Shown here in pieces: positions 290 to 64,000 of a DNA stretch of 64,000 bases (the first letter of the stretch is position 1; every line of letters begins with the position of its first letter). A program made the translations under genes and the position numbers. The DNA is from Peronospora farinosa. Taxonomy: Eukaryota > Oomycota > Peronosporomycetes > Peronosporales > Peronosporaceae. Below the pieces are notes generated by a model, which made no database searches, was not told the DNA's origin, and worked only from the letters and a program-made list of their open reading frames with translations. The DNA is taken from positions 1-64,000 of the forward strand of contig CANTFK010000580.1 in the NCBI GenBank assembly GCA_947646735.1, written 5' to 3'.

Positions 290-660
290 TCATCACTGGC
301 GGGAACCTGGCTGGCGGGACCCTCAGGTGTTGGTGCCGGATCCTCGCTGCTGGGACCCTCGCCACCGGGACCCTCAGATGTGGGTGCAAGATCCTTGCTG
401 CTGGAACCCTTGGAGGGGAGTGCTGGACCCTTGCCGCTGGAACCTTTGGGAGGTGGTGCGGGACCCATGCGGCTGTAGCCCTTGAAGGATGGTGCGGGAC
501 CCTTGCCGCTGGAACCCTTGGAGGATGGTGCTGGACCCTTGCCGCTGGAAACCTTGGAGAATGATGCGGAACCCTTGCCGCTGGAACCCTTGGGTAGTAC
601 TGGACCCTTGCCGCTGGAACCCTTGGGTGGTGGGGCCCTTGCGGCGGGATCTTTTGGCTG
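290..660 (-). repeat. 36-bp minisatellite coding 12-residue repeats
   Basis: Roughly ten degenerate units of about 36 bp occur, each containing a variant of cccttgccgctggaaccctt on the plus strand. Read on the minus strand the unit is 12 codons, so the array keeps frame. One frame gives GFQRQGSS-type repeats and another gives KGSSGKGPAP-type repeats; both are open for long stretches. It forms the C-terminal part of the E0 antisense gene. Confidence 0.85.
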
Positions 661-1804
661 GTGGCTTACGCTTAGCATGGCTAGACTCTTCATATTCAGT
701 CTCAGAGTCTGGTCCAAACATCTCCAAGAACTCGTCGGAGTACGTCGTTCGAGCCCTCTTGTTCTTTGACGCCCGAGGCGCTGCGTGGGAAGTGAGAGGG
801 GATGGGGGCCTTGAAGGTGGAGTGGGAACTTTGGAATTGGCCTTAGTCGATAGGTCTATGACCTCGGGGCCGACCTCTGACGTAGAGGGTACAGGGCCGG
901 AGCGACGACTGGAAGCCCGCGACCTGGCCATGGCGGCGAACATCGAGTCGTCACTACTGCTATCCTCGGCCTCAGATGACCCCGAGGCACGATTGGCTTT
1001 TCGCTTCTTCGGCTTAAGGGGCGACCGAGCCTTGGATGAAGGCGAACGTGACCTTTTCGTCGTTCTAGAACTTCGGGCTTTGGTCGTGGCTGGGGTCGAT
1101 TTTGCCGCCGTGCCTCGAGCAACCGTTAGCTGCTTCTTCAGCTGGTCACGTTCCCGGAGGAGGGTCTTCACGCGGCTCTTGTAGTTGGCAACCTCCTTCT
1201 GGAGTACCAACACTTGTTTGGACAGTTCTTGAGGACTGCGAAGTGCGTCCAACTTGGACTCCAGCGACCGAATCTCAGCCGAAGAATTTGCGACAGCCTC
1301 GTTGTACTGGTCCTTCCAGTACTTGATCTGGGATCGGAATTCTTCCACTTCCCGAGAATTGTCCACCCGCTGGGCGAGTGCATCCCGGTACTCGGCGATG
1401 GCCAGCTGGTCCACTTCATGCTCGTGGACCAGATTCCGGACCCAAGACTGTATCCGGGGCGCATGGGTCATCTCGAATTCCGTGAGGTTGTCTACGCGAC
1501 GCTGTAATTCCGCGGTCCGTCGATGTTCTATCTGGTAGGCCCGTTGGAGGACCCTGTGTTCCTCAGCGAGGGTCTCCATGGCCTGAGCCCGCTCCACCGC
1601 TCCACGTAAAACTTCCCAAGCTTGAGAGACCTCCAGATAATTGGGGGGGGGCTCCCCAATAAGGTCCACGGTCGGGGCGACCTCGTCAGGGTCAGGTCCA
1701 GGAAGTGCGAGAAAAGACCAACGGTCAGGTGCTTGAGAACCGGTGGAAAAATTACGAGAAGTCACTAACGGATACAAGACGTGTGAGTTGGTGAACGCAA
1801 CCAC
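374..1804 (-). CDS. Antisense ORF (aORF) of Chronos-like element E0: coiled-coil, basic/Ser-rich protein
   Basis: This uninterrupted 476-codon ORF lies on the strand opposite to the element's gag-pol, directly inside the 3' LTR. Residues ~60-230 are heptad-rich with many E, Q, L and R residues (predicted coiled coil). Residues ~235-290 are a Ser/Arg/Lys-rich segment with nuclear-localisation-like clusters such as KPKKRK. Residues ~290-385 are acidic and serine-rich. The C-terminus runs into 12-residue repeats. An alternative frame (103-717) reads the repeats as KGSSGKG units, so a frame change in the array is possible. The position and architecture match the antisense genes at 11109-13261, 51954-53466 and 61383-62896. 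Function is unknown; a nuclear or nucleic-acid-binding accessory protein is inference. Confidence 0.7.
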   Translation of the reverse strand: MVAFTNSHVLYPLVTSRNFSTGSQAPDRWSFLALPGPDPDEVAPTVDLIGEPPPNYLEVSQAWEVLRGAVERAQAMETLAEEHRVLQRAYQIEHRRTAELQRRVDNLTEFEMTHAPRIQSWVRNLVHEHEVDQLAIAEYRDALAQRVDNSREVEEFRSQIKYWKDQYNEAVANSSAEIRSLESKLDALRSPQELSKQVLVLQKEVANYKSRVKTLLRERDQLKKQLTVARGTAAKSTPATTKARSSRTTKRSRSPSSKARSPLKPKKRKANRASGSSEAEDSSSDDSMFAAMARSRASSRRSGPVPSTSEVGPEVIDLSTKANSKVPTPPSRPPSPLTSHAAPRASKNKRARTTYSDEFLEMFGPDSETEYEESSHAKRKPPAKRSRRKGPTTQGFQRQGSSTTQGFQRQGFRIILQGFQRQGSSTILQGFQRQGSRTILQGLQPHGSRTTSQRFQRQGSSTPLQGFQQQGSCTHI

Positions 1805-1888
1805 CCAAGCGACGTAGGATCACTTACTGTTAATTCGAGGAGTTTGGACAAGGGTGCACGTGGTCTTACCGCAGTTCGAAAGACCAGC

Positions 1889-1902: not shown

Positions 1903-2548
1903 TGTGGTGAAGTGCCAGGGAAAGTTGGAGTTTAAGGGAGATGGAACAGAGAGCAAGAGAACTTCTGGTCACTTCCCCGAGGGAGTGACCACGACCCGGC
2001 CTCGCGGATTTACAACCACACACCAGGCCCCGCCGTATTAAGAATATAAGGACCCATACGTGCGGAGTCAGTACAGGTTCCGAAGACCCAGGGGTACAGG
2101 GGCCCAGGGGCCCAGGGCCCTAATGTCCGAGGGTGCAGAACCGGTACACAAAATTTCGAAGATTACAGAAAGTACAGGGTACCAAGGGGCCAGTTCTTCC
2201 TCCAAGAGTCGGCACGTGGCACTATCCAGATCAAAGGGTTAGGGTTAGGCAAGAAAAAGCATACAAAGTATAAGGTAAATAAACACACTCGAATTTGCAT
2301 TACACGTGGCAGCTTTAAGCGCCCCTCCTAAGCTTCTCCGTCGCTTCACCTCTTCCGCGCGGGATACCCTTTGGCCCCCCGACGTCAGCAGGTGTTAGAC
2401 GGCTCAAGCTACGCAAGTTGAACCTCAGGATAGTTGGCCTGAGGTGTCAAGTAAGTGTCAAGACTCTACGACCCGCTACAGGAAGCGGTTTTCCTACGGG
2501 GAAGAACACAAAGGGGTCCAAGGACCAAGAACAGTCAGCCACCAAAGG
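1903..2548 (+). mobile_element. E0 3' LTR, U3 side (broken by inversion)
   Basis: It starts TGTGGTGAAG like the other Chronos LTRs and contains the family landmarks in order: a purine-poor GGCCCCCCGACGTC block and the conserved stem-loop at 2422-2445. It lacks the U5 end (ACGGGTACACA motif and CTCCACCACA-type terminus) and switches at 2548/2549 into Copia integrase sequence. The missing U5 end is at 28801-29092 on the opposite strand. Confidence 0.8.
2422..2445 (+). promoter_or_regulatory. Conserved LTR stem-loop, covarying version
   Basis: ACCTCAGG and CCTGAGGT form an 8-bp perfect stem around an 8-nt loop. The equivalent LTR position in C is ATCCCTGG/CCAGGGAT with a 9-nt loop. Three base pairs differ, and all three remain paired, which argues for selection on RNA structure. 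Confidence 0.7.
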
Positions 2549-9090: not shown

Positions 9091-10884
9091 ATTTCGGATC
9101 AAGATCGTCAAGACTTGGGTACTCTAAATCGATTGGACGAGCTGTTGATCCCAAGACAAGTCGATCAGGTAGTCAAAGTGGCTGCGATCACTCGATCAGC
9201 TGTGAGAAGACGTTGTCAGCCAGAAATTTTGCAGGAAGAAATCGTGCCAGCAAATGCGGGTCGATCGCATACGACAAGCTCAAGACGAAGAATGTTGGAT
9301 ATCTAACTTGAAGAAATATTTGGTCGGGGATGTTGCGAAGTTAAAAGTGGACGAAGCGAAGAGCTGTCCCCTGATCGCATCCGATTACGAAGTGGACCTA
9401 AGTGAACTATTACTTTTCTACCATGGAGCAAACGCGAAATCTGAAGATCGTAACGAGTTGGTTCTCTTGGTAATTCCGGAGTTATTTCAGCAGGATGTTA
9501 TACATCATTACCATACGAGTCTGGAAGGTGGTCACCAAGGGATTGGTCGAACCTACCAACTGATCAAAATCAATTTCCACTGGCGAGGATTGTACCGAAG
9601 TGTGCAGCGATATGTTGGCGAATGTGTGGATTGTGAAACAGACAAGGGGCGGCCATCTGATCATGGAGGATCACCAGGAAATTTACAGGCGACTTGTCCG
9701 TTTCAAATTTTGGCTATGGATCATATTCCGTCACTACCGCGATCTTTCAAAGGAATTACGGAGTTGTTACTATGGGTTGATCTGTTTTCAGGCTATGTGA
9801 TCGCAAAGGCCAGTTCGTCCCGGACTGCACAGACGATCGCAGAAAACTACGAAGCGTGTGTTTTCCGACGGTTTGGTGCAAGTGAGCCGATACGCCACGA
9901 TCGAGAGCCAGCATTCATGTCTGACTTCTTTCGTGCGTTTAACCGGATCGCGGGGCAGAAACAACGAGCTACCTTGGCATATAGACCACAAGCAAATGGC
10001 ACGGCAGAGCACATGGTCCAAACGTGACATGATCAGTCAAGATGTATGTAACGGATGAGAATCAGAAAGATTGGGACGAGTGTGCAGAAAGGCTGACTTT
10101 CGCGATCAATACTGCCCAAGATCGTGTCCGTCGAGACACCCCGTTTTATCTGATTCACGGTTGGGACCCGCGATCGACCTTGGAGGCGGACCTACCGTTA
10201 GGGAGCACCAAATCGCGTGATCGTGATCCAAGGCGATGGCGATACGGCATACAACGCCACTATCAACGGGCAAGATCGGCTGTGAACGATCGGTTGAAAA
10301 TTGCGACCCAAGACCGATCTGATCGACATAATGCAGATCACGAGCGTTTTGAGGTGGATCGTGAATCTCAGGTGTGGCTCTATCTGGATCGAGTCAAAGA
10401 GGGATATGCTCGGAAGTTAGCCCATATGTGGCACGGACCGTTTCTTGTAGCCGATAAATGTGGTGATCACTCAGTACGATTGGAGATCGCGGGTACGACA
10501 TACAGGCTGTTCCCGGTGGTCCATGTGTCGAAGTTAAATCAAGTTAGAGTGTTCCCAGAATGCCCTACAAATTTGTTGAATGTGGATGAAGCAGATCGAG
10601 TGGATTTTGATGAAGCGTTACTACCGGAAGACAGCTGGAATGGGGATCTAGAGGAAGGTGAATACGAAGTGGAAAAAATCGTGGATGTGCGATCGGGTCG
10701 AAGAACGGGCTATGGTCGGGTGCATCGTCAGCTTTTAGTGAAGTGGAAGGGTTATAACGATCCTGAATGGGTCGATGAAGCAGATTTGAATTGTGGTGCT
10801 TTGTTGCAAGAGTTCGATCGCGATCGAGCTAGCCGAAATAGTTTTGAGGTGATGCAATCGCACGAGGAGGAGTCTCGTGGTTAA
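9091..10884 (+). pseudogene. Chronos A integrase with C-terminal chromodomain
   Basis: The ORF 9254-10027 contains the HHCC zinc domain (HHYHTSLEGGHQ ... CVDCE, 9500-9640) and the core: first Asp in AMDHIPSLPRSF (~9720), second in IRHDREPAFMSDF (~9900), Glu in ANGTAEHMVQT (~10005). A TGA at 10025-10027 ends it. The ORF 10042-10884 continues with RLTFAINTAQDRV and the integrase C-terminal domain (VHVSKLNQVRVFP). It ends with a chromodomain (YEVEKIVDV ... LVKWKGYNDPEWVDEADL, ~10665-10790) and a short tail. Chromodomains in this position are thought to direct integration to modified histones. Confidence 0.88.
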
Positions 10885-11108: not shown

Positions 11109-13261
11109 TTACTCGCGATTCACGAACTTACCAACCAAGCGAAGGATCGAATAACCGGGATAGTCGGTCATGGAAAGACGATACTGGTCCCTCCACGGCT
11201 CTTTCACAGTACTTATGGATAATGCGGTGATCAGATTGGGTATGTTGGTCTGGTTCGTGGGTAAACCAGGATACCATATCCTGACCTCCTTAAGACGAGG
11301 GAAATGAAGGAAAATCGGGTCCAGTAAAATGTCCAGATCACACAGACCATCGATCATGCCCTGAAGAATCATGCCAAGCACTTTTTTCCACATGGGACCT
11401 GATCGTGATCGCCGTTGTTTTCTCTCTTGAGCCAATGTGGCCAAGGCAGGATCGGATCGACGATGTTGGGTCGATATCGGCAGAAAATGTGTCGCCTCCC
11501 AGAGTGCCTGGCAATGACGGACTTTGAAATCGTTATACAAGCGTACCAATTCTTGGAACCATCCAGTACACTCGAAAGAGATCGGATCGACCAGTTGTTC
11601 ATACAGCAGCCAGGGCTGGCGAGCGTATAATTGGCTGATTTGAGAGGAGGTGATCAACCCGGACGACCACTCGAAATCACTAGGTTTCTGGGGTTTTCCA
11701 GAAGGAGCAGGGAATATGTAACCCCTCGGTTTCGAATAATGGTGGAAGAGTGTATCCAGATCCAATTCAGAAACGCACAACAAGCTGATTCTGCGAGCGG
11801 ACCAAGGAAGCGTATCGGATGACGCTCGAAGGACTCGATCATGATAACCTGGAATCCAGAGATCACGAGAGATTGTGGTGTTGGGGAGATCCGAGAATTC
11901 TTCCGCGGTCATCAATTGATTGCAGTAAATCCGAGGGTCGCTGTCTATACTGAGGCTACCCTCAGATTCACTGGAGGGTTCGCCAAATAAATCTGTCATC
12001 GACACTCGTGTCGGAGTTTCATGAGGAGACGTAACTGAACTGGGTGAGTCCACCACGATCGGTGAAGAAGGTGGATATACCGGAGACCGAGCCACAGTGC
12101 GTCGTCGAGAAGCCTATCGAGAAGAGGATAACGCAGCCAGCAGAGAGTCGTCCGTCTGATCGGAACCATACCCAAAAGGATCTTCTTTACTCGCATCTGT
12201 AGAAGATGAAGAAGAGGTTCGGGGATAATCTGAGGTTGGTGACCCAGAAAAATCGGGGGAATTTGATCTTGATCTGGGCGAATGCGATCTCGATCTCGAA
12301 TTGTCTGGACCTAATCGTGTTGAAGCTATGGAATTTTCAAGACTTGATCGGGCCGAGGTTGGAAAATGGTTGGGACTTGAATCATGGAGACTTGTGAACG
12401 TAGATGTTCTTCGAATACGCTTGAGCACAGGCTGATCCGAGTCAGAAAGTTTTCGCTGGCGCTTGTTCCGTTGTGGAGATACTTCACTAGAAGCAGCGGC
12501 TGGTGACGACGTTGAGGGCGGCGACCCGGTTTGATGTGATATACCAGACAAACGAGCGAAGAGAGAGTTCCGATCCTTAATTTACTGTGCAAGTTGATCG
12601 CGCTCAATCCGGATCGCGTTAAGCTGAAGTTGGGTATCATGGAGCTGCTGTTTGTATTGGATGTAGCGAGACTTAAATTGGCTCTCGGAATTTTTGGCTT
12701 GAGCAGCCTGTTCATTGGCCGACTTGGCGGAATCAAGCGCAGCTGCCAGCTTGTTCTGGACGGCAGCCAGCTGGAATTGAAAACGCTTATCGGCCTTGTG
12801 GCGAGCTGCGGTGGCGTCGAGTAGAGAGGAACGCAGGTCCGCGATCTCCATCTCCAGCTGGCCGATCTGTTCCAATTCTTGGCGATACTCCTCTGCCGAT
12901 CGAGTCGCAATTTGAAATTTGCAGCACAAGGAATTATACTTGTATGACACGAATTTCGCGAAACTTCCAGCCAATTCACGACAGCTTGAATCTCGCGTTC
13001 CAAACGAGCGTAGCGAGTTTCTTGGGAGTGCAATGCATCGTAAAGTGCTTCGTAGTTGTCCAATACGTCGTGCTGGGTGTCCAAGCAGTCGTAGAGTTGG
13101 TCAATTTGGGCCTTCAGAGCAGCCCGATCCATGGTCGGAATGACCCTCGCCCGACCACCAGGAAAACTTGCAAGCGATCGTGGAGTGGGCGCGATCGACG
13201 GTTGATGAGAATTCGTGATCCGATTCGATGGAACAGAAGCTTGACGTGGGAATGTCGACAT
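11109..13261 (-). pseudogene. aORF of element A: coiled coil, basic/Ser-rich centre, C-terminal domain
   Basis: This is the longest version of the antisense gene, about 715 codons. The start is probably the ATG at 13261-13259 (MSTFPRQASV). The N-terminus (13261-12980) has a helix with YDCLDTQHDVLDNYEALYDA. A frameshift near 13000 leads to a long coiled coil (12974-12585), a TAA at ~12584, a basic/serine segment with KRQRK and KRIRR (12551-12115), and a TAG at ~12112. A compact ~270-residue domain follows (12000-11109) with DLWIPGYHDRVLRAS and LLCVSELDLDTLFHHY. Apart from one frameshift and two stops everything is in one frame, so it decayed from an intact gene. No known family is recognised for the C-terminal domain. 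Confidence 0.75.
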
Positions 13262-13330
13262 GTTGAGAACGGGAATTTGAGCGAAGGAATAGAATATGCA
13301 CGGACACACCAGCACTGTATGCCGGTGATC

Positions 13331-13345
13331 AGCGCAGGGGGCGGC
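13331..13345 (+). other. Polypurine tract of A
   Basis: agcgcagggggcggc directly precedes the LTR start. It shares the gcagggg core with the other Chronos copies. Confidence 0.75.
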
Positions 13346-13611
13346 TGTGGTGAAGTCGATCAATCAAAGTTTGATCAAACGATATCGAAAGTGATCATAA
13401 TGTGGACCACTTACACGGCGAAAATCATATTCTATGGATTATACTTGGCTTTTGTATGGGAGCGATCAAGATTTATCGATGAATGATCGCATAGTTTATG
13501 CTTGGCTATTGTATTGGAATGACAGCTTATCTGGATCGATCATGTGATGGCCACGGTTGGCCGAGGAGTACGCGGCGGTGATGACGATCAGGGTGGGAGA
13601 TCGCTCGATCG

Positions 13612-13900
13612 CAATCGACAAGTTTGATCGACGATCGTGATCGACAAGTGTGACAAGTATGATCGACGATCGTGATCGACAAGTGTGATCGTCTATCGCG
13701 GTCAGCAAGTGTAATCGACGATCGTGATCAGCAAGTGCGACAAGTATGATCGACGATCGTGATCGACAAGTGTGATCGACGATCGTGATCGACAAGTGTG
13801 ATCGTCGATCGCGGTCAGCAAGTGTAATCGACGATCGTGATCGACAAGTGTGATCAGTATGATCGACGATCGTGATCGACAAGTATGATCGACGATCGTA
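13612..13900. repeat. GATC-rich minisatellite in the A LTR
   Basis: About eleven degenerate units of roughly 22-27 bp, based on gatcgacgatcgtgatcgac followed by aagtgt. Each unit contains two to four GATC sites and the palindrome CGATCG. It lies in U3. Confidence 0.9.
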
Positions 13901-14207
13901 ACCACGATCTAGAAAGCCGATCGCGAAATGTAACCGGTTACAAATCGATCGTAACCTCGATCGATGGATCAAGATCGCGATGGTATCCGAAGTGGACCAC
14001 ATACCAAGGTCTGATTTTCCTGAAAGAGACGACACGCGGCAGTAGGTGCTGTCATACAGATAGGCATAATCGTAGGATTTGGTATTTCATTGGTTAACAT
14101 TAAACAGAGTTTCTTTTACTTCAAACCACGCACGCAGACTTCTCTTCCGGGCGGATAACTTTGGCCCCCGACAATCAAGAGCTTCTGTTACGCTAAGACA
14201 AGTGATA

Positions 14208-14230
14208 TCTCTGGATTGTTTGGCCAGGGA
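14208..14230 (+). promoter_or_regulatory. Conserved LTR stem-loop (A copy)
   Basis: TCTCTGG and CCAGGGA pair around ATTGTTTGG; one pair is a G-U wobble. The loop is the same as in the C, D and E LTRs. Confidence 0.6.
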
Positions 14231-15169
14231 TTACAAGATCTCTCACGAACAAACTTCGCCTGCGATTGGACGCAGTATCACGTAAAGGACAAGACACGAG
14301 ATCTCGAGACGGCTCAAGTGGTCAGAAGATCAAGTGAAATCAAGTGGATCAAGTATCAACATTTGGATAAGGCGGTCTCAAGGCGGTCTCAAGGCAGACC
14401 AGGGTGACTCATAGAGCACCCCCCATACAACTCTCGATCGCGTGAGGATTTTCCACGTGATCGACCCCCCGACCAATCCCCAACCACGGTCAAGCTCAGC
14501 ATCGACTCAAGTCCACCGAGAAAAGTGCTACCCGCCCTACCGACGGGTACACAAGGTGAAGAAGGAAAGTTGCACGGAAACGGAGTACCACCTCCGTTAG
14601 TCGTTCGTCTGAGCGCCAGTGGAGAGTTGGGATCACATCAAAAATTTTGTGATCGCCACTCCACCACACCAATAAGGCGAAGCTTAATTCTCCTGACCGT
14701 TTGAGCAGAACCTTCTGACCACTTGATCCGTCCTTCGCTTGCCTTGCCTTGCCATACTTGTTATCTCAGCGTCCGATCGCAGTTGAGTTGTGTTGAGAGT
14801 TCTTGCAATCCCTGGCCAAAAAATCCTGGGATTTGACTTGCGTGGTGTGTAGGCTTCCTCGAGACGTCGGGTGGCCTAAGATTCCAGCCCGGAAGAGAAG
14901 TCGACACGTGTACTTAGAAGCAAATTAAACTCTGTTAATGTTAACCAATCAAATACCAAAACTTACGATTTTGCCTATCTGTAGTTCAGAATCTATTAAC
15001 ACGTGTCTTCCTTTCAGAAAAATCAGATCTCGATATGTGGTCCACTCCAAATACCTTCACTATCCCGATCCACTGGCGATCTTGCCTTATTCTTGGATCG
15101 CGATCTGAATCAGATCGCGTACCAGTTCAGGATTGCGGTCAATCCAAAATGCGTAACTATTGTAATTGG

Positions 15170-16156: not shown

Positions 16157-16463
16157 ATCGTCCCCTACACCGGTAGATGACATACAGTGTCGATCTGGCT
16201 GTGCATCGTCTGTACGATTAAGATTTCTCGAGGTGATCGTGAACTAGTAACACCTCTGCTATACAATATCATTTTTTTCTCTATTTCGTTAGCCTTCTCC
16301 AAAATTGTCTTCTTTTCTTAGGCCTTTTCAGCCTTAATCCAGTCTCCCAGACCTTCGATAGCTATACTCATTACACACAAATTTCCTTTTCACCACCCTA
16401 TGCAACCTTCTTGCATATTGTACCACTCCCAACACTCGATATCCTTTAGCCATCAGATACTTC
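16157..16463 (-). other. Element B pol to 3' LTR interval without an aORF
   Basis: On the minus strand this 307-bp interval keeps the conserved sequence next to the LTR (CACTGTATG ... GTAGGGGACGAT polypurine tract at 16170-16157). The ~2 kb antisense gene present in A is absent. The rest is AT-rich and pyrimidine-rich with no ORF. The retained LTR-proximal motif suggests deletion of the gene body. Confidence 0.65.
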
Positions 16464-17802
16464 TTAATGTGACTGCATCACTTCAAAACAATTCCGGCTA
16501 ATTTCACCACGTTCCAAATCTCGCAATAAGGCACCACAACTTAAATCGGCTTCATCCACCCAGGATGGATCAGCATAACCTTTCCAGTAGACATTTAACT
16601 GTCTATGTACTCGGCCAAAACGTGGCTTTCTATTAGACCGTACATCCACAATCTTTTCCACCTTAAAGTCATCATATTCAAGGTTGCCTTCGAAACTATC
16701 GTCCGGCAAGACGGCTTCGTCAAAATCGAATCGATATTCTTCTTCGATTGTCAGCACAATTTTTGGACGACACGGGAACATCATTAATTTCTTCAACTTG
16801 ATATATGCACGATAGGGGTTAGTCGATATGGTGTACCAGCGATCTCCAGATGGACAGTGTGATCTCTACACATTTCTTTCACTCGAAAAGGTCCATGCCA
16901 CATATGTTCTAGCTTTCGAGCGTACCCTTCTTTCACACGATCTAAATATAACCACCTGTTCAATTTCGTGAGGCTTAAGATATTCATTGTGGCGACCAGC
17001 ACGTGTTTGGATCGCAGTCCTGAGTCTCTCATTTACTGCTTCTCTCGCCCGCTGATAATGCCGCTGCATGGCTTCCAACGTATACCGCGGGCCCCATTCA
17101 TGAATCAAGAAAAATGACGTTTCGCCGCGCACCCGATCTTGGGCGGTACTGATCGCGAAAGTTAAACGCTCGGCATACTCATCCCAGTCTTGTTGGTTCA
17201 CGTCAGAGACATACATCTTTAATGCACGAGTCAGAGTTTGCGCCATACGCTCAGCAGTTCCATTTGCTCGAGATCGATATGCCATCGTTGCCCTTTGCTT
17301 CTGTCCAATATTTCGGTTAAATGCACGTAAAAAAATCAGACATAAAGCCGGGTTCTAGGTCATGACGTATTGCTTCACTAGCACCAAAACGACGGAAGAC
17401 ACAGTCTTCATAATTTTCAGCGATAGTTTGGGCTGTTCGCGACGAACTTGCTTTGGCGATCACATAGCCAGAAAATAAATCTACCCAGATAAGTAACTCG
17501 GTATTTCCTTTAAACGATTTAGGCAGAGACAGGATATGACCCATGACAATAACTTGAAAAGGATAGGTAGCCCTGGTGATTCTCCATCAATCACGGGACG
17601 TCCCTTTTCATTTTCACAATCTCTGCACTGATTCACACAGCGCTGTACACTTCGGTACAGACCCCTCCAGCGAAAATGCGCTCGTATCCGCTGGTAGGTT
17701 CTCCCAATTTCCTGGTGACCCCCTTCCAAACTATAATGATAATGATGCAGGAAATCTTGCTGCAAATTTTCGGGTGCCAACAGACGAGCGATCTCATCTC
17801 GA
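16464..17802 (-). pseudogene. Element B integrase core and chromodomain
   Basis: Minus-strand pieces: 17802-17560 (HHCC domain, HHYHYSLEGGHQ ... CRDCENEKG), 17544-17317 (first Asp region, LLIWVDLFSGYVIAKA; second Asp in AIRHDLEPGFMSDF), and 17285-16866 (Glu in RANGTAERMAQT; LTFAISTAQDRV). The C-terminal domain is at 17032-16793. The chromodomain is at 16796-16464 (FKVEKIVDVR ... VYWKGYADPSWVDEADL). Several frameshifts separate the pieces. Confidence 0.85.
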
Positions 17803-18893
17803 TGTGGTGAAGCGAAAGAGTGAATTTTTGCAAAGTGTGATCGCATAATTTCGGTTAAGTCCGAAACGGTCAATATTGATGAATCGCGATCCAGCAGAAG
17901 AAGTTTTCGAGACGTTGCAAAATGAAATTTACAACAGTGAATGGTGGTGCTCGCAGTTCTATCTTGAAATAACTACGGTCTAAAACTACGCAACTGCGAT
18001 CTCTGGTATTTTTCGATGGCGATCCGCGTGAGGATTGGTAAGTCCAAGTATGTGAAAGACGGTCTGGTGTAGATCACGTCACTATGGAAGACTGGAATGA
18101 GGTAGACATGCCATATCATACAGATAGACCATTTCACATGATCCGAGGAACGGTGAAGGTAACAAGTCGTGATCCGGCGGACCGCGATCCGATAATAAAA
18201 TGGTATTAGATCCAATCGAGTAGCGATCCAGATCGCGGCGATATTGGAGTGGACCACATGACATAATCTGATTTTTTTCGGAAGGGTGATACGTGACAAT
18301 AGATCCTGGACTACAAATATACAGAATCTTAGGTTTGTTGTATTTGATTGGTTAAGTTTAAACAGAGTTCAATTTACTTTTAAATACACGTTTCGACTTC
18401 TCTAATCTGGGAAGGATATTTGGCCTCCCGACGCCGATAATATCGACTACAAGTCCACCCTGGATTGTTTTGGCCAGGCGAAGATATTCTCAACACAACA
18501 ACTCAACTGCGATCGGACGCAGAAACAACAAGTAAGGGCAAGGCAAGCAAGTGCAGGACGGATCAAGTGGTCAGAAGGTTCTGCTCAAGTGGTCAGGAGA
18601 TTCAATCTTCGCCTTATTGGACTATTGGGATCTATGGGCGCGATCAACAAACAAGTACTCGGTAGATCTTGTAAAGATTTCCACAAGATCACCAAAAACC
18701 CCTATCCCTAACCCGATTAGGATCAATCATCGACTCAAGTCCACCAAGAAGAGAGCAACCCGCCCTACCGACGGGTACACAAGGTGAGGAAGGCTTTATA
18801 CACGGAATCGGGGTACCCCCTCCGTTAGTCGGTCGTCCGGGCGCCAGTGGAGAGTCGGAATCGCATCAGCATTGCGAATCCCACTCCACCACA
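17803..18893 (+). mobile_element. Solo Chronos LTR (1091 bp) inserted in B integrase
   Basis: It starts TGTGGTGAAG and ends CTCCACCACA. It is flanked by TCGA (17799-17802) and TTGA (18894-18897), a 4-bp target duplication with one change. Removing the LTR and one copy of the duplication restores an in-frame integrase junction (FQD...DEIARL). Landmarks include the TTTCGG/CCGAAA hairpin near 17848, GTGGACCAC near 18251, inverted CCAAT near 18347, the stem-loop near 18460 and ACGGGTACACA near 18771. It probably arose by LTR-LTR recombination of a full element. Confidence 0.9.
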
Positions 18894-19680
18894 TTGACGA
18901 TCCTGGAATTTCGTTGTGGTATAAGGGCCAAAACTCAACAAAATATATTTATCCACTTCATAATAATTAGCCATCTTGGAACATGATTTCGCTTTCTCGA
19001 TCGTCAATGTCGAGATGTCACCGACCAAATATGTCTTCAGATTAGCAATCCAACATTCTTCGTCTTGGGCACGCTGTATGCGATCAATTCTCATCTGCTG
19101 CACCATTTCTTCCTGCAAAATCTGTGGTTGTCGACGTTTTCTTCGTGGTGATCGGGTGATCGCCGCTACTTTAATTACTGTGGAGGTTTCTTGAGGCTTC
19201 AGCAATTCATCCAACCGCTAAAGCGTAATTAAATCTCGGCAGTTCTCATCCGTAGTCACACTCGCCCCCTCTTCTCGTTTCAATGCGATACTAGCCAATC
19301 GATCCGCGCTCTGATTCCAATCGCGTAAAAACTCATGAGCAGGCCACGACCGCAATTTATCCAACGATTTATGTCGCAATAATTGTAGCTATGGCGCTTT
19401 ACAATCAATCTTACTCCTCATTTGTCGAATCACCAAATTTGCATCTCCACAAATTATGACTCGTCCTCTGTTTTAATTGCAAGTAATTCAAACCCAGCAA
19501 CATGCCGTTACATTCTGCTTCATTCACTGTTAGGTCCGTTGAATATTTATACACTGCCTCCAAAATTGTCCACTTTGGCAATTGATATACGATAGCACTG
19601 TAAGTTCCACCATTACGTTTTACCTGTGCCGATCCATCGAAACTGACGACCAAAAGACTTCCATTTTTTTTCCACCGTAG
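18894..19680 (-). pseudogene. Element B RNase H2 and integrase N-terminus
   Basis: 19653-19411 carries the RNase H2 start (VVSFDGSAQVKRNGG and NEAECNGMLLGL). The rest of the domain, with WNQSADRLAS-type sequence near 19320-19290, is frameshifted. 19214-18894 encodes the segment between RNase H2 and integrase (MDELLKPQETSTVIKVAAITRS), then the start of integrase (ECWIANLKTYLVGD), running into the solo LTR. Confidence 0.8.
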
Positions 19681-44120: not shown

Positions 44121-44511
44121 TGCCTGGCGAATTGAAGGAGTGAATTCGCAAAGTGTGATCACATATTTTCGGTTAAGTCCGAAATGGCCAATATTGATGC
44201 GTCGCGATCTCGCAGAAAGGTTTCGAGATGACGTCAAATGGGATGGAAAACAGTGAATGGTGTAGTTTGCAGTTCTATGTGGGGTCAAATATGGCCTAGA
44301 AACTACGCTATTGCGATCTCCAGTATTTTCGGTGGCGATCCGCGTGAACGCGATCGCTAAGAAGGAGGATGGGTACATCCAAGTATGTGGAAGACGGTCT
44401 GGTGTGGATCACGTCACTATGGAGGAATGGAATGGTGGACATGACATGTCACAAAGATGGACCATCTCACATGACCTGAGAAACGGTGAAGAGGACAAGT
44501 CGTGATCCGGC

Positions 44512-44720
44512 GGATCGCGATCCGATGCTAATTATTAGTATCGCGATCCGATATTAAGTATTAGTACCGAGATCCGATATTAATTATTAGTATCGCGATC
44601 CGATACTAATTATTTAGTAACGCGATCCGATACTAATTATTAGTACCGCGATCTGATACTAATTATTTAGTACCGCGATCCGATACTAATTATTAGTACC
44701 GCGATCTGATACTAAAATGG
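44512..44720. repeat. 27-bp LTR minisatellite (gcgatccgatactaattattagtac)
   Basis: About seven units, each with GCGATCCGAT and an AT-rich half. Present identically at 53941-54150 and 63371-63580. Confidence 0.9.
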
Positions 44721-44978
44721 TATTAGATCCGAGCGAGGTAGCGATCCAGATCGCGGCGATATTGGAGTGGACCACATTACAAGATCTGATTTTTCCGAAA
44801 GGGCGATACGTGGCAACAGATCCTGAGCTACAGATAGTCAAGATCATAGGTTTTGGTATTTGATTGGTTAACATTAACAGAGTTCAATTTGCTTCTAAGT
44901 ACACGTGTCGACTCTCTTCCGGGCTGGATTCTTTGGCCACCCGACGTCTCAAGGAAATCTACATACTACGCAAGTCAT

Positions 44979-45003
44979 ATCCCTGGATTGTTTGGCCAGG
45001 GAT
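44979..45003 (+). promoter_or_regulatory. Conserved LTR stem-loop (C copy)
   Basis: ATCCCTGG and CCAGGGAT form a perfect 8-bp stem with loop ATTGTTTGG. Copies at 54408-54432 and 63838-63862. Confidence 0.7.
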
Positions 45004-45418
45004 TGCAAGAATTCTCAACAAAACAACTCAAGCTGCGATTGGACGCAGAGGACTAAGAAGTCCAGATACAAGATCGCGAGACGGCTCAAGTGGTCAGAAG
45101 GCAAGCGTATTAAGTATCAACCCATTGGACAAGGCGATCTCAAGAGAGATCAGGGCGACTCATATAGAGCACCCCAAGAACAACTGCGATCGTGTGAGGA
45201 ATTCCACTCGATCGCCCCCCACCTATCCCTAACACAATCAAGTTCAACATCGACTCAAGTCCACCGAGAAGTGTGCAACCCGCCCTACCGACGGGTACAC
45301 AAGGTGAGGAAGGAATTGCTTTACACGGAAACAGAGTACCCCCTCCTATAGTCGGTCGTCTGAGCGCCAGTGGAGAGCTGGAAACGCATCAGCATTTTGC
45401 GAATCCCACTCCACCACA

Positions 45419-47707: not shown

Positions 47708-47769
47708 GACGCTCGCCAGGTTGGAATCTGGTACGAGCCGAGCGTTCTAGGCTCTGCATTTATGCATTT

Positions 47770-48803: not shown

Positions 48804-51121
48804 AACTCACGACACGATCCAATGATGAATGCGATGCGATAAGAGAAATCGGTGGAAACAATGTAAAAGATCTGGTGATCGAAGATGAAAGTGAACAAGT
48901 AGCGCAATCTCCCATGGGTAATCAATGCGATCAGAGGGATGTCAAATGTCGATCACGCGCAAGGGCCGTGGGGTGAAGATAATTGCGCTCGCAATAACTA
49001 TACACAGGAATGTATGGAGCGCGATCCGACAATTAATGACCGTGATCTGGCCGATCTGGTTGATCCGGTAGTTGATGACCGCGATCTGGCCGATCTGGAT
49101 CGCGATCTGCGAGAACAAGAGCAAGCTAGTGATACTACGACTATCAACGACGAATGCATTCTAGCCGGAGGAAGTGTAAAGATGAAGCCTGAAGACTCGA
49201 TGTATTACCACGAGAGTGGTGAATTGTATGCCGAAGACGTGGATCAGCATATGGCTGTTTTGCCTGAGATTGTGTCATCCACCGAAGAAGTTACGATTGA
49301 TGATATCCAAGTGGGCGATCCGGGAGTTCCTTTAACCAAGGACCAAGAAGGTCTACGGCAATTGATTTGGGCGAACCGACACTTACTCATTGGCAAAGGA
49401 AACGCGCTTCCTCCTGCAGCTCGAGGAGCAGTATGTGATATCGATGTTGGTGGAGCACACCCGATCGCACAGCGAGTACGACCGGTCGCTCCCAAATTTC
49501 GCGAGAAGTTAGCTGACCTAATCAAAGGATTACTATCAGCCAGGATTATCCAGCCGTCGGCATCACCATGGGCTTCGCCGATTGTGGTAATTATAAAAAA
49601 TAATGGTGTCGACATCCGGTTATGTATTGACTATCGGCGGGTGAATCAACTTACGAGATTGATGGTGTATCCTATGCCGCTGATTAGCGAGTTATTGCAA
49701 GATATGGATAAGGCTATGTGGTATTGTTAGTTGGATATGGCCAGTGGATTTTGGGTCGTGGAAATGATCGAGCGAGCGAGGATGATTTCTGCTTTTATCA
49801 TGCCGTCAGGCATGCTCGAGTAGTTACGAATGCCGTTTGGGCTAAAAACGCTCCGCAGATTTACCAACGTCTAATTGATAATGCACTGTATGGATACCTC
49901 AAGATCGGTACGGATCCAAACGCAATTGCTACAGGATCACTCGACTCCACTGATATGGTAACGGGATCGCCAAAAGTGGCTGATGTATTCACTGAAGGTG
50001 AGCCGGACGCTAGCCAGAAGCCATCTGTACTCGGCCGAAGGTCATATATTGATGACATACTAATTCCAGCAACATCGTGGACCTCCTTATATGATAAGGT
50101 AAAGCGATTGCTGGAAGTATGCAGTGAATGGAATTTGTCGATCAGTCTCGCTAAGAGTTTTTGGGGACGACGTAAAGTGGGTTACCTGGGTCATCAAGTC
50201 TCACTTGCAGGAATAGAAGCTCATCCGAAGGATTTGGGATCGCTGGTGAATATTCCGTTCCCAAGAACGTTGCGATCGATGCAATCGTTTCTGGGTAGTT
50301 TGAATTACTATAGTCGATTTGTCGAAGACTTTGCAATTTATGCGTCAGTGCTATATGAATTACGGGAAGCAGATTTCCACGAAATCCGCTGTTCTGACAA
50401 GATGAATGCATTGGATTCGACTGTCGCAACCAGGAATGATTCAGATCAAAAGTTCGATATTGGGGACGATCCAGATCCAGAAGGACGGACTCGATGGGAA
50501 AAAGCGATGATCGCATTTACCATGTTGAAAGCCAAGATCGCTAATACCCTTATCCTCAGACACTTCGATCCAGATCGGCCTCCGGTAATTTTCATATATG
50601 CGAGTAAATGGGCGGTTTCAGCAGCTTTGTTGCAGGAGTATGATGGTACATATTGGCCAGTTACGTTTACAAGCCGAACGCTGAAGCCGAATGAGATCAA
50701 TTACGGAATGGTCGAGAAGGAGATACTAGCATTACTTCGGATTTTGGATATATGTTATTGCATGCTAGTTTCGCGAGAGATTAAAGTTCTCACGCGTTTC
50801 TCGACGATGGCCTGGTTGGTGCAATCCTCCGGTCTCAATGGCAGGCTAGGTAGGTTGGCCGCATTATTATCGACTTGGACTTTGGAGATCAAGAAATGTG
50901 AAAAGGGCGAAGATGAAATACTTGGTGCCCTGGCTGCAAGTGTGACTCCCCGTGAAGAAGTCGATGAAGTGTTGATCGCGATCGCTCCTCGGAAACAGCC
51001 AAGGCAAACTCTAAGTATGCCACCGCCTACGGTGGAAGAAGATGAAAGTCTCTTGGTCGTCAGTTTCGATGGATCGGCACGAACCAAGCGAAAGGGTGGA
51101 TCATACAGTGCGATAATATGA
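48804..51121 (+). pseudogene. Chronos C reverse transcriptase and RNase H1
   Basis: An acidic linker with repeated DRDLADL units (49040-49110) leads to RT (GDPGVPLTKDQEGL, RLCIDYRRVNQL). A TAG at 49728-49730 falls just before LDMASGFWVVEM, and a second TAG near 49821 replaces the Trp before LRMPFGL. The catalytic YIDD is near 50050, about 58 residues after LIDNALYGYL. RNase H1: FIYASKWAVSAALLQEY (~50590), NYGMVEKEILALL (~50700). The frame ends in a TGA at 51119-51121 in place of Trp. Confidence 0.87.
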
Positions 51122-51685
51122 AAACTTCCTGAGTGGACTATTGTGGCTGCTGCATCGGAATATGCAACGGACTTAACAGGGAACGAAGCCGAATATCGGG
51201 GTTTACTATCAGGCTTTGATCTGTTGGAGAATCAGACTAGGGGACGCGTAATCATTTGTGGCGACTCCAACCTAGTGATTCGACAGATGCGGGGTGAAAT
51301 CGATTGCAAGGCTCCTGGACTGCAGTTGTTGCGACAGAAGGCAATGGAGAAGCTTCGATCATGGATGATCCATGAGTTCGTACATATGAAGCGCGATTGG
51401 AACCAAAGTGCAGATCGACTGGCAAGTACTGCTTTGCAGAAGGAACAAGGTGTGGTCATCACTTCGGAAAGAGATCGCCAAGATCTCATTACCCTTAATA
51501 GACTGGATGAGTTGTTGAAGTCGAAGCAGACCGAATCGGTGGTTAGAGTTGCTGCGATTACCAGATCAACTAGGAGAAGACGTCAACTACCCGAGATTTT
51601 GCAGGAATTTGAGCGCGAACAAGTTCGCCGTAATCGTTTCGAAGTTCTGCAGTCTCATGAAGAGGGAAAAGCTGAAGATTTGTGA
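51122..51685 (+). pseudogene. Chronos C RNase H2 fused to pol C-terminal tail (integrase deleted)
   Basis: RNase H2 motifs: VVSFDGSAR (before the TGA, ~51060), NEAEYRGLL (~51185), CGDSNLVIRQM (~51260), WNQSADRLAS (~51400). The sequence then runs through ITLNRLDELL and LPEILQEFEREQ into NRFEVLQSHEEG. In A, LPEILQ-like sequence precedes integrase and QEFDRDR...FEVMQSHEE follows the chromodomain, so about 1.6 kb is deleted between two TTGCAGGAA/TTGCAAGAG copies. Confidence 0.88.
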
Positions 51686-51894: not shown

Positions 51895-52490
51895 TGAAAT
51901 TAGATCGCGCCGAAGAACTAGATCGCGCTGAAGTACCAGATTGTGCCGGAGTATCAGATCGCGCCAAGTACTAGATCGTACTGAAGTACCAGATCGCGCT
52001 GAAGTACCAGACCGCGCCGGAGTACCAGATCGCGCCAAGTACCAGATCGCGTTGAAGTACCGGATCGCGCCAGAGTACCAGTACCAGATCGCGTTGAAGT
52101 ACCGGATCGCGCCAGAGTACCAGATCGCGCTAGAGTACCAGATCGCGCCCGAGTATTAGACTGTGCCGAGGTACCAGATCGCGCCGAAATCTCGGATCGC
52201 GTCGAAGTCCCAGATCGCACCGGAGTACCAGATTGCGTTAAATTACCAGATCGCGGTGGAGTACCAGATCGCGCTGAAATACCAGATCGCGTCAGGGTAC
52301 CACCAGATCGCGTCGAAGTACCAGATCGCGCCGGAGTGCCAGATCGCGTCAGAGTATCAGATCGCGCCAAAGTATTAGACTGTGCCGAAGTACCGGATTG
52401 TGCCGGAATTTCAGATCGCGTCGAAGTCCCAGATCGCGCTGGAATGCCAGATCCCTCCGAGGTCGCAGATTGAGCAGAAGTACCGGAAGC
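51895..52490 (-). repeat. 18-bp GATC minisatellite coding 6-residue repeats
   Basis: About 30 units of accagatcgcgccgaagt type. Read on the minus strand they code SGTSAR/SGTPAR hexapeptides, so the array keeps frame. Same in D (61324-61920). Confidence 0.9.
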
Positions 52491-53466
52491 GCTGCGGGGA
52501 CGTTTACAGGGGACGTCCAGAGTCGGTGAAGATGACGCACGTTTGCGATTGGGTGACGAGGGATTGGACATCGCGAGAAGGCTAGTCGGAGAAGGAAGTA
52601 AGCCCATAGAAAATTCTTCCAGATGCGAACGAAGTAAATCTTGATCCTGGATGGCCAGATCGCGCTCCGCCTCTCGATCTGCAACTTCGGTACGAAGTCT
52701 ACCCAAAGCTGCGTCGTTCGGAATACTCGCACTCAGGAGGCGATCATGATCAAACTCGAGCGCGCTCAGCGTCTCTTGCAGCTGTTTCACGGATTGCTGG
52801 GTCTGAGAGCGAGCTTTCTTGTACTTGGACGCCTTGCTTTTCATGCGTCGAAGGTCATGGGCCAAATCACTGTCTGCCGTATTACGCTGTGCGAGGATGG
52901 AGTCCAGTTGCTGTTGGAGGGACGTGATCTGCTGCCGGAATTTTCCTTCCAGAGTTCGCTGAAGATTGGCCGCCTCACGGCGGAATTTATCCTGCAGGCG
53001 ATGTTTCTCTGCATTGCTCGAAACAAGGCATTCTTCAGATCGGCGATTTCCTGAGACTGATCCGTTAGCTGGTTCAGTTCTTCGTCGAGACCTTCGGCCA
53101 TGTGGAGAGCGGCATCAAGTTGTTGACGCAACTATTCATCTCGACGCAATACGAATGTGCACAGTCGAGGCACCAACTCGTGATACGAATTGAGTTCCGT
53201 CTCCAGCTGATTTCCACGAAATTCCTGCTCCTGCAAGGCATTTTCCATGGAGTGATGCTTTCCACGATGGTATCTTGTACTTCCAGGCGGTCATACAATG
53301 AAGAAACCAACGAGATCGCGTTTTGACGATCCGTAACGGGAGGAAGGATTATCCGGGTAGACGGGAGCAGGATACGCGATCCGGTAGAGGAATTCATCGT
53401 TGGATCGCGCGTGACGAGAACACCGGTTTGGGGGTGGCGATCGTTTTCGGGTGTAGGTCTGGCCAT
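51954..53466 (-). pseudogene. aORF of Chronos C: coiled coil, NLS-like segment, hexapeptide repeats
   Basis: Start probably ATG 53466 (MARPTPENDR). N-terminal helix with SSLYDRLEVQDTIVES, resembling the LYDCLDTQHDVLDNY helix of A. A 1-nt deletion relative to D near 53256 shifts the frame; a TAG lies near 53140 and another frame change near 53024. 52865-51954 is open for 303 codons: coiled coil, RDLAIQDQDLLRSHLEEF, a basic NRKRASS/CKRPRS segment and SGTSARSG repeats. The C-terminal domain of A is absent. Confidence 0.72.
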
Positions 53467-53536
53467 AAGGGACGAAGTGACGAGAAGAGTGAAGCGAGAC
53501 AGTGCACAGTTAGGCAAACACTGTATGTGGGCTATC

Positions 53537-53551
53537 GGTGCAGGGGACGAT
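53537..53551 (+). other. Polypurine tract of C
   Basis: gtgcaggggacgat before TGTGGCGAAG. Same in D at 62967-62981. Confidence 0.75.
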
Positions 53552-54847
53552 TGTGGCGAAGTGAAGGAGTGAATTCGCAAAGTGTGATCACATATTTTCG
53601 GTTAAGTCCGAAATGGCCAATATTGATGCGTCGCGATCTCGCAGAAAGGTTTCGAGATGACGTCAAATGGGATGGAAAACAGTGAATGGTGTAGTTTGCA
53701 GTTCTATGTGGGGTCAAATATGGCCTAGAAACTACGCTATTGCGATCTCCAGTATTTTCGGTGGCGATCCGCGTGAACGCGATCGCTAAGAAGGAGGATG
53801 GGTACATCCAAGTATGTGGAAGACGGTCTGGTGTGGATCACGTCACTATGGAGGAATGGAATGGTGGACATGACATGTCACAAAGATGGACCATCTCACA
53901 TGACCTGAGAAACGGTGAAGAGGACAAGTCGTGATCCGGCGGATCGCGATCCGATGCTAATTATTAGTATCGCGATCCGATATTAAGTATTAGTACCGAG
54001 ATCCGATATTAATTATTAGTATCGCGATCCGATACTAATTATTTAGTAACGCGATCCGATACTAATTATTAGTACCGCGATCTGATACTAATTATTTAGT
54101 ACCGCGATCCGATACTAATTATTAGTACCGCGATCTGATACTAAAATGGTATTAGATCCGAGCGAGGTAGCGATCCAGATCGCGGCGATATTGGAGTGGA
54201 CCACATTACAAGATCTGATTTTTCCGAAAGGGCGATACGTGGCAACAGATCCTGAGCTACAGATAGTCAAGATCATAGGTTTTGGTATTTGATTGGTTAA
54301 CATTAACAGAGTTCAATTTGCTTCTAAGTACACGTGTCGACTCTCTTCCGGGCTGGATTCTTTGGCCACCCGACGTCTCAAGGAAATCTACATACTACGC
54401 AAGTCATATCCCTGGATTGTTTGGCCAGGGATTGCAAGAATTCTCAACAAAACAACTCAAGCTGCGATTGGACGCAGAGGACTAAGAAGTCCAGATACAA
54501 GATCGCGAGACGGCTCAAGTGGTCAGAAGGCAAGCGTATTAAGTATCAACCCATTGGACAAGGCGATCTCAAGAGAGATCAGGGCGACTCATATAGAGCA
54601 CCCCAAGAACAACTGCGATCGTGTGAGGAATTCCACTCGATCGCCCCCCACCTATCCCTAACACAATCAAGTTCAACATCGACTCAAGTCCACCGAGAAG
54701 TGTGCAACCCGCCCTACCGACGGGTACACAAGGTGAGGAAGGAATTGCTTTACACGGAAACAGAGTACCCCCTCCTATAGTCGGTCGTCTGAGCGCCAGT
54801 GGAGAGCTGGAAACGCATCAGCATTTTGCGAATCCCACTCCACCACA
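53552..54847 (+). mobile_element. Shared middle LTR of the C/D tandem (1296 bp)
   Basis: TGTGGCGAAG to CTCCACCACA. It serves as 3' LTR of C and 5' LTR of D, the hallmark of LTR-LTR unequal exchange. Array at 53941-54150; stem-loop at 54408-54432. Confidence 0.88.
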
Positions 54848-61382: not shown

Positions 61383-62896
61383 TCAGATCGCGCCAAGTAC
61401 TAGATCGTACTGAAGTACCAGATCGCGCTGAAGTACCAGACCGCGCCGGAGTACCAGATCGCGCCAAGTACCAGATCGCGTTGAAGTACCGGATCGCGCC
61501 AGAGTACCAGTACCAGATCGCGTTGAAGTACCGGATCGCGCCAGAGTACCAGATCGCGCTAGAGTACCAGATCGCGCCCGAGTATTAGACTGTGCCGAGG
61601 TACCAGATCGCGCCGAAATCTCGGATCGCGTCGAAGTCCCAGATCGCACCGGAGTACCAGATTGCGTTAAATTACCAGATCGCGGTGGAGTACCAGATCG
61701 CGCTGAAATACCAGATCGCGTCAGGGTACCACCAGATCGCGTCGAAGTACCAGATCGCGCCGGAGTGCCAGATCGCGTCAGAGTATCAGATCGCGCCAAA
61801 GTATTAGACTGTGCCGAAGTACCGGATTGTGCCGGAATTTCAGATCGCGTCGAAGTCCCAGATCGCGCTGGAATGCCAGATCCCTCCGAGGTCGCAGATT
61901 GAGCAGAAGTACCGGAAGCGCTGCGGGGACGTTTACAGGGGACGTCCAGAGTCGGTGAAGATGACGCACGTTTGCGATTGGGTGACGAGGGATTGGACAT
62001 CGCGAGAAGGCTAGTCGGAGAAGGAAGTAAGCCCATAGAAAATTCTTCCAGATGCGAACGAAGTAAATCTTGATCCTGGATGGCCAGATCGCGCTCCGCC
62101 TCTCGATCTGCAACTTCGGTACGAAGTCTACCCAAAGCTGCGTCGTTCGGAATACTCGCACTCAGGAGGCGATCATGATCAAACTCGAGCGCGCTCAGCG
62201 TCTCTTGCAGCTGTTTCACGGATTGCTGGGTCTGAGAGCGAGCTTTCTTGTACTTGGACGCCTTGCTTTTCATGCGTCGAAGGTCATGGGCCAAATCACT
62301 GTCTGCCGTATTACGCTGTGCGAGGATGGAGTCCAGTTGCTGTTGGAGGGACGTGATCTGCTGCCGGAATTTTCCTTCCAGAGTTCGCTGAAGATTGGCC
62401 GCCTCACGGCGGAATTTATCCTGCAGGCGATGTTTCTCTGCATTGCTCGAAACAAGGCATTCTTCAGATCGGCGATTTCCTGAGACTGATCCGTTAGCTG
62501 GTTCAGTTCTTCGTCGAGACCTTCGGCCATGTGGAGAGCGGCATCAAGTTGTTGACGCAACTATTCATCTCGACGCAATACGAATGTGCACAGTCGAGGC
62601 ACCAACTCGTGATACGAATTGAGTTCCGTCTCCAGCTGATTTCCACGAAATTCCTGCTCCTGCAAGGCATTTTCCATGGAGTGATAGCTTTCCACGATGG
62701 TATCTTGTACTTCCAGGCGGTCATACAATGAAGAAACCAACGAGATCGCGTTTTGACGATCCGTAACGGGAGGAAGGATTATCCGGGTAGACGGGAGCAG
62801 GATACGCGATCCGGTAGAGGAATTCATCGTTGGATCGCGCGTGACGAGAACACCGGTTTGGGGGTGGCGATCGTTTTCGGGTGTAGGTCTGGCCAT
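61383..62896 (-). pseudogene. aORF of Chronos D
   Basis: Better preserved than C: from ATG 62896 it runs to a single TAG near 62570, continues in the same frame, shifts once near 62455 and then stays open to 61383. About 504 codons: N-terminal helices, a long coiled coil (E, Q, L, R-rich, including LAHDLRRMKSKASKYKKAR), a basic segment and hexapeptide repeats. Confidence 0.74.
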
Positions 62897-62981
62897 AAGG
62901 GACGAAGTGACGAGAAGAGTGAAGCGAGACAGTGCACAGTTAGGCAAACACTGTATGTGGGCTATCGGTGCAGGGGACGAT

Positions 62982-64000
62982 TGTGGCGAAGTGAAGGAGT
63001 GAATTCGCAAAGTGTGATCACATATTTTCGGTTAAGTCCGAAATGGCCAATATTGATGCGTCGCGATCTCGCAGAAAGGTTTCGAGATGACGTCAAATGG
63101 GATGGAAAACAGTGAATGGTGTAGTTTGCAGTTCTATGTGGGGTCAAATATGGCCTAGAAACTACGCTATTGCGATCTCCAGTATTTTCGGTGGCGATCC
63201 GCGTGAACGCGATCGCTAAGAAGGAGGATGGGTACATCCAAGTATGTGGAAGACGGTCTGGTGTGGATCACGTCACTATGGAGGAATGGAATGGTGGACA
63301 TGACATGTCACAAAGATGGACCATCTCACATGACCTGAGAAACGGTGAAGAGGACAAGTCGTGATCCGGCGGATCGCGATCCGATGCTAATTATTAGTAT
63401 CGCGATCCGATATTAAGTATTAGTACCGAGATCCGATATTAATTATTAGTATCGCGATCCGATACTAATTATTTAGTAACGCGATCCGATACTAATTATT
63501 AGTACCGCGATCTGATACTAATTATTTAGTACCGCGATCCGATACTAATTATTAGTACCGCGATCTGATACTAAAATGGTATTAGATCCGAGCGAGGTAG
63601 CGATCCAGATCGCGGCGATATTGGAGTGGACCACATTACAAGATCTGATTTTTCCGAAAGGGCGATACGTGGCAACAGATCCTGAGCTACAGATAGTCAA
63701 GATCATAGGTTTTGGTATTTGATTGGTTAACATTAACAGAGTTCAATTTGCTTCTAAGTACACGTGTCGACTCTCTTCCGGGCTGGATTCTTTGGCCACC
63801 CGACGTCTCAAGGAAATCTACATACTACGCAAGTCATATCCCTGGATTGTTTGGCCAGGGATTGCAAGAATTCTCAACAAAACAACTCAAGCTGCGATTG
63901 GACGCAGAGGACTAAGAAGTCCAGATACAAGATCGCGAGACGGCTCAAGTGGTCAGAAGGCAAGCGTATTAAGTATCAACCCATTGGACAAGGCGATCTC
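62982..64000 (+). mobile_element. Third LTR of the tandem, cut by the window end
   Basis: Matches 53552-54570 throughout, including the array 63371-63580 and the stem-loop 63838-63862. By homology it would end near 64277. Confidence 0.88.

Follow-up and report, generated by a model that had tools for sequence, protein, structure and literature searches.

The window, that is, the whole stretch of DNA analysed here, comprises positions 1 to 64,000 of contig CANTFK010000580.1 from the oomycete Peronospora farinosa (assembly GCA_947646735.1; C160:1-64000 in our numbering). It contains Chronos-type retrotransposons (Ty3/gypsy elements), in which an additional open reading frame (aORF) lies antisense to pol, between pol and the 3′ long terminal repeat (LTR). 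The element at the centre of this study, element A, is organized as follows; CTD denotes the C-terminal domain of the aORF protein and PPT a polypurine tract.

9206..10024, plus strand: pol, integrase zinc-binding and core domains (Pfam Integrase_H2C2, 1e-15; rve, 6e-6, below the cut-off)
10033..10884, plus strand: C-terminus of pol with chromodomain, convergent with the aORF (Pfam Chromo, PF00385, 3e-8)
11109..12113, minus strand: aORF, CTD frame, 334 codons from stop to stop (own-genome matches; Peronospora and Phytophthora homologues)
12329..13363, minus strand: aORF, N-terminal frame, 345 codons, ATG near 13261
13334..13345, plus strand: PPT-like sequence adjoining the 3′ LTR (pattern repeated in copies L002, L025, L033, L044 and L046)
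13346..14668, plus strand: 3′ LTR, its end inferred from similarity to the LTR of element D

The aORF of element A is broken, its N-terminal and CTD frames being split by stops and a frame change, so the single long frame given for this locus in a preliminary description, made from the sequence alone, does not hold. In the sister copy L002 the A-family aORF is a single open frame of 762 codons. According to parts of the published account (PMC5348765), Chronos elements are defined by reverse transcriptase (RT), native and additional RNase H, integrase and a C-terminal chromodomain. Native and then additional RNase H (Pfam RT_RNaseH, then RVT_3) were found in the pol of copy L012 and in element D of the window, and a chromodomain follows integrase at the end of pol in element A (3e-8) and in L012 (3.4e-4, below the cut-off).

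The preliminary description had reported long antisense frames at four places, on the strand opposite to pol and with their N-terminal ends adjoining the 3′ LTR. Both points held: besides the two frames of element A, there are minus-strand frames at 374-1819, 51954-53601 and 61383-63007, belonging to elements E, D1 and D2.

374..1819, minus strand: element E, truncated aORF with N-terminal part, basic region and 36-bp repeats, CTD absent
1903..2400, plus strand: element E, start of the 3′ LTR (2400 is an arbitrary end)
49712..51685, plus strand: element D1, pol with partial RT, native RNase H and additional RNase H (Pfam RT_RNaseH, RVT_3)
51954..53601, minus strand: element D1, B-family aORF that has lost the CTD; N-terminal part and 18-bp repeats lie in two frames
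53552..54847, plus strand: LTR of element D, common to both tandem units, its end inferred from similarity to the LTR of element A
61383..63007, minus strand: element D2, aORF of the second tandem D unit

LTRs start at 1903, 13346, 53552 and 62982, and the same PPT-like pattern precedes each. D and E are truncated copies rather than protein plans of their own. D1 and D2 are tandem units of one B-family element, 99.98% identical across 10.4 kb, and D as a separate lineage with a 'repeat domain' of its own is ruled out, since the two are family B with a deletion. This deletion took out the integrase and chromodomain (comparison with L025) and the C-terminal half of the aORF, and a frame break is also present. 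The 'fully open' copy of 476 codons is that of E; it is open, as a remnant truncated at the start of the contig, and in its relatives L032, L033, L034 and L037 one frame reads through the repeats into the CTD.

To place the gene relative to pol, we searched the window's own assembly (46.9 Mb, 274 contigs). Only the best candidates are scored in such searches, so that all tallies are lower bounds, and the lists of matches overlap. Matches number at least 127 for the CTD of family A, at least 99 for the E protein, at least 109 for the N-terminal part of B, at least 127 for the C domain and at least 125 for the E domain. A first tally took in all 127 A-CTD matches, 70 of the 99 E-protein matches and 23 further rows, most of them among the 109 B matches (one of the 23 duplicates an A-CTD match). 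In it, 98 of 138 matches to the C-terminus of pol had an aORF match no more than 4 kb away on their 3′ side, all antisense. Adding part of the C- and E-domain matches (62 of 127 and 5 of 125) brought in 14 more pol ends, giving a total of at least 112 of 138 with an antisense aORF or remnant; beside the 138 listed pol ends there was no same-strand aORF match. Antisense frames of this kind are thus present in other Chronos copies. The gap between pol end and CTD match has a median of 225 nt, and two pol matches have an E-family aORF match on their 5′ side. At the other end of the gene, the aORF ATG is separated from the 3′ LTR by 85 nt in family A, 86 nt in B and 47 nt in C; in family E, inspection by eye found no start codon near the LTR. 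The upstream stop of family E overlaps a splice-donor-like sequence, likewise by eye.

The aORF frames are far longer than base composition would produce: they are open for 742-948 codons in the representatives of the four families (A, B, C and E), as compared with longest frames of 301-372 codons in 300 dinucleotide shuffles of each, and sister copies in the same genome have antisense frames open for 675-973 codons. Across the four lineages the protein follows one plan, with an N-terminal coiled coil, a basic and serine-rich middle with clusters resembling nuclear localization signals (NLS), and a conserved CTD. The preliminary description had recognized this common plan, and the 'LYD-L' motif, which we found in A and B/D; it had noted little nucleotide similarity between the lineages, and their protein homology proved greater than it had seen. 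Measured against the A CTD, identity is about 54% in B, 34-36% in C and 30-34% in E, and a 12-sequence alignment including other species has ten invariant columns, W98, L147, W162, S173, F174, G178, W199, E200, H203 and W236 (numbering of the window protein). An SR(S/A)xxRR motif and basic clusters, with an RKxRR segment, occur in all four representatives. At the N-terminal end, 186 residues of protein P0003 align with the E protein at 25% identity (E-value 3e-9). In an AlphaFold2 model of protein P0002 (mean predicted local distance difference test score, pLDDT, 48) a nearly continuous helix spans residues 118-357 at a pLDDT of about 60-87, with low confidence elsewhere; the modelled helix is consistent with a coiled coil. 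Pfam scans placed no aORF above any family cut-off and a PDB sequence search with the CTD gave no match, while a PDB search with the profile of alignment A1 returned weak matches, mostly to coiled-coil proteins (best 9e-4). The middle of the protein contains in-frame repeats, of 18 bp in B/D (L013-L026; window 51954-52490) and of 36 bp in E (about 316-650). Several B copies have frames of 912, 930, 936, 942, 948 and 954 codons, lengths spaced in multiples of six; the number of repeats apparently changes while the frame stays open.

Homologues of the aORF were found in Peronospora matthiolae, P. effusa, Phytophthora megakarya, P. cinnamomi and P. fragariaefolia, and in ENA and other contigs. 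A predicted protein of P. effusa (P0015) is 99% identical to the C-terminal region of a family-C aORF protein of the window's own assembly. Four of the homologue clusters contain 19-35 member sequences, as expected of multicopy elements, and others contain one. P0016, with a single member, comes from an ENA contig of 1,923 nt; in this predicted 586-residue protein RT and RNase H are joined in frame to an aORF CTD, an arrangement that an inversion of the antisense domain into pol might produce, although it may be an artefact.

We then asked whether selection acts on the encoded protein, using 23 hand-picked open copies, a sample that is biased against stops and unbiased for amino-acid changes. 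Ratios of nonsynonymous to synonymous substitution (dN/dS) were pooled, and events were counted against the majority codon, without a tree, and compared with neutrality by binomial tests. In the aORF frame of the CTD, pooled dN/dS was 0.51 in A (4 copies), 0.25 in B (11 copies) and 0.23 in C (4 copies), with event-count P values of 0.0036, 3e-5 and 7e-5, respectively. The N-terminal and middle part gave P values of 0.0017 in B and 0.003 in E (this test covers B, C and E, there being only one long frame in A). The other two frames on the aORF strand of the CTD scored 0.71-4.4, with a mean of 4-13 stops, and two of the pol-sense frames scored 1.0-2.2 in A, B and C and 0.59-0.80 in E. An equivalent test of pol gave P values of 0.0073 in A, 0.048 in B and 1 in C, the last with 2 changes only (B_L010, C_L046 and four E copies are left out of it, their frames being short or missing). 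Between families, the proportion of synonymous differences (pS) is near saturation, at 0.75-0.85, versus 0.30-0.52 for nonsynonymous ones (pN). In A, B and C, three of the four families, the CTD evolves under purifying selection. The conserved antisense gene between pol and the 3′ LTR proposed in the preliminary description is supported by homology across lineages and species, by selection in three of four families and by fixed position and orientation; dN/dS is significantly below 1 with two exceptions, the CTD of family E and the N-terminal part of family C. A separate open frame of 397 codons, on the pol-sense strand opposite the aORF in all four family-C copies examined (L044-L047; L044:1183-2373, minus strand), is probably a by-product of composition.

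Some Chronos copies, in turn, lack the gene. No aORF was listed beside 26 of the 138 pol copies, of which we chose eight for examination (L048-L055, the first two for their long open pol frames). Two more, on C49 and C264, have the A deletion junction alongside, so that 10 of the 26 are accounted for. In all eight, almost the entire aORF is gone by internal deletion, and the pol end, PPT and LTR start are intact. There are seven distinct junctions, five in C and two in A, with L050 and L054 pooled despite a 2-nt difference. Best-fit junctions have 0-7 nt of exact microhomology, and none of the eight has GT-AG borders, which rules out splicing as the origin of these copies; initial blast overlaps of 3-11 nt, and of 33 columns with one shifted GT..AG option in L051, were superseded by this refit. 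Template switching or end-joining repair would fit such deletions. The A junction of L048 is present at one locus on each of six contigs, C20, C49, C253, C55, C264 and C243, of which three match it exactly and three differ by 2-3 mismatches in 35 nt; that of L050/L054 is present at three loci on two contigs and that of L049 at one locus. The aORF-less copies presumably moved by transposition. Two of them match aORF-bearing copies in the length of the pol frame (1906 codons on C253, 1761 on C28). Given these deletion copies, the aORF is apparently not required in cis, as a trans-acting protein predicts, unlike a cis-acting RNA or DNA function. The clean losses suggest a protein common to the copies rather than required by each. 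Window positions 16449-19478 hold, on the minus strand, a diverged pol of Chronos-like type that has no aORF match alongside and is possibly a further aORF-less copy.

Taken jointly, these observations can be read as follows, with about an even chance, in our estimate, of the whole being right: the aORF is a third Chronos gene, antisense and proximal to the LTR, for a trans-acting nuclear coiled-coil protein, and the feature in element A is its remnant. An antisense transcript would start from a promoter in the 3′ LTR or at its inner edge. The 3′ LTR of element A presumably holds such a promoter, and the distance of 47-86 nt between ATG and LTR in three families is suggestive of one. The protein would self-associate via its coiled coil, enter the nucleus via its basic clusters and serve in trans by acting on the nucleic acid or chromatin of the elements, in transcription of the family, nuclear entry or integration, through the conserved CTD with its basic and tryptophan-containing segment. 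Copies without the gene would rely on copies that bear it.

Several results weigh against this reading. In the E-family CTD dN/dS was about 0.80 (P 0.28, 4 copies) and in the N-terminal part of family C it was 0.82 (P 0.23, 4 copies), so that constraint was significant in neither. One pol-sense frame, which contains 6-11.5 stops, scored 0.32-0.37 in A, B and C as against 0.77 in E, probably because this frame and that of the aORF have wobble positions in common. In family E, pol-sense frames scored level with or below the aORF frame. Nuclear entry and self-association are predicted from motifs and a model, and the CTD modelled alone reached a mean pLDDT of only 46, with no domain match that names an activity. 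The clean losses would equally fit a gene that is simply dispensable, and the junctions found at several loci could include segmental duplicates.

The main rival to such a helper protein is a self-limiting copy-number factor, in our view unlikely, in which the aORF product would repress its family in trans, copies that delete it would be freed or would cheat, and lineages that keep it would last longer. Repeated clean deletions, at several loci each, alongside purifying selection on the kept copies would be expected under it. Deletion copies, however, share the genome with intact ones and would stay repressed in trans, and the same observations fit a helper protein exploited by cheaters. A captured passenger gene, weakly selected and lost without consequence, we consider rather unlikely. 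The eight examined losses, with pol end and LTR start retained and full-length-like pol frames in two, agree with it, and so does the weakness of constraint on the CTD of E and on the N-terminal part of C; conservation in four lineages and across genera, and retention of the gene or its remnant beside at least 112 of 138 pol copies, do not, and the selection result disfavours a dispensable gene for A, B and C. Quite improbable is a functional antisense RNA, acting through double-stranded RNA or sense-antisense control, with the frame incidental. Such regulation has been discussed for plant elements (in parts of PMC7264820) and the convergent arrangement would suit it, but selection at the protein level and cross-lineage homology at near-saturated synonymous sites speak strongly against it, as do the stops that interrupt the remaining CTD frames. 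A structural or env-like virion gene would occupy just this interval, the usual site of env, and is made very improbable by the antisense orientation without a single same-strand match at 138 pol ends, by the coiled coil and basic low-confidence middle, and by the absence of env or glycoprotein families among the listed Pfam matches.

The arrangement has precedents. The plant Ty3/gypsy elements Grande (gene23), RIRE2 and Retand (ORF4), and also PvRetro13 (ORF2), have an additional ORF in antisense orientation in the interval from pol to the 3′ LTR (aORF-3R), and the Grande antisense protein is reported to be nuclear (passages of PMC7264820 and PMC11963269). Tat elements of plants possess an additional RNase H, as Chronos does (passages of PMC10508981). 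As in those plant lineages, most copies here (at least 112 of 138) have an antisense ORF at this position; the host is an oomycete, however, and the plant hallmark is missing. Transposase_28 proteins occur in 97% of Retand clusters (according to part of PMC11963269), whereas Transposase_28 (PF04195) had no match in the P. farinosa genome at E ≤ 1 and was absent among the listed families (25 of 42) for the nine aORF members scanned. The lack of this domain, typical of plant antisense genes, points to an independent origin. Outside plants, Boty of the fungus Botrytis cinerea has an antisense ORF in the same place (passage of PMC7264820). HTLV-1 HBZ and other antisense retroviral genes are mentioned in the same literature (parts of PMC11963269 and PMC7264820). 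HBZ resembles the aORF as an antisense gene at the 3′ LTR end and is nuclear, a comparison of how the genes may work and not of descent. HBZ is a bZIP protein; none of the nine members scanned has a convincing bZIP domain (best bZIP_1, E 0.097, in one). A broader generalization, tentative and in our view unlikely, is that retroelements that gained a second RNase H (plant Tat, oomycete Chronos and retroviruses) repeatedly evolved an LTR-driven antisense gene for a trans-acting nuclear coiled-coil factor. In Chronos this factor would be common property, on which deletion derivatives draw as they amplify, with their cis-acting ends and pol retained and the antisense gene discarded.

The published Chronos domain set agrees with the elements described here; the antisense gene is unmentioned in that account, the main text of which (PMC5348765) contains the word 'antisense' zero times, as the preliminary description's suggestion of novelty would have it, and a search of the openly licensed literature found no description of an oomycete antisense gene of this kind. 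Antisense ORFs between pol and the 3′ LTR are known in plants and one fungus, and the aORF family apparently adds an undescribed conserved gene to an abundant oomycete retrotransposon group. With intact and gene-deleted series in one genome, the role of such genes becomes testable, and the apparent dispensability in cis means that their action is to be sought in trans. A further prediction is antisense transcription driven by the LTR; at the 5′ LTR such transcripts would leave the element and extend into neighbouring genes.

Three further features of the window concern its repeats and its structure. Positions 44125-64000 form a tandem array of LTR-internal-LTR-internal-LTR with units of 9,429-9,430 bp, in which the middle LTR is common to two integrase-less Chronos units. 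The very start of the contig (1-263) repeats, in inverted orientation and with 95% identity at the protein level, a portion of the E aORF near 1170-1440; it may have arisen by an inverted rearrangement or be a foldback artefact of assembly. Finally, the LTR of element A contains 13/26-nt repeats at 13565-13903, which have many-fold matches in the A-family LTR of L048, where the array looks longer than in the window.
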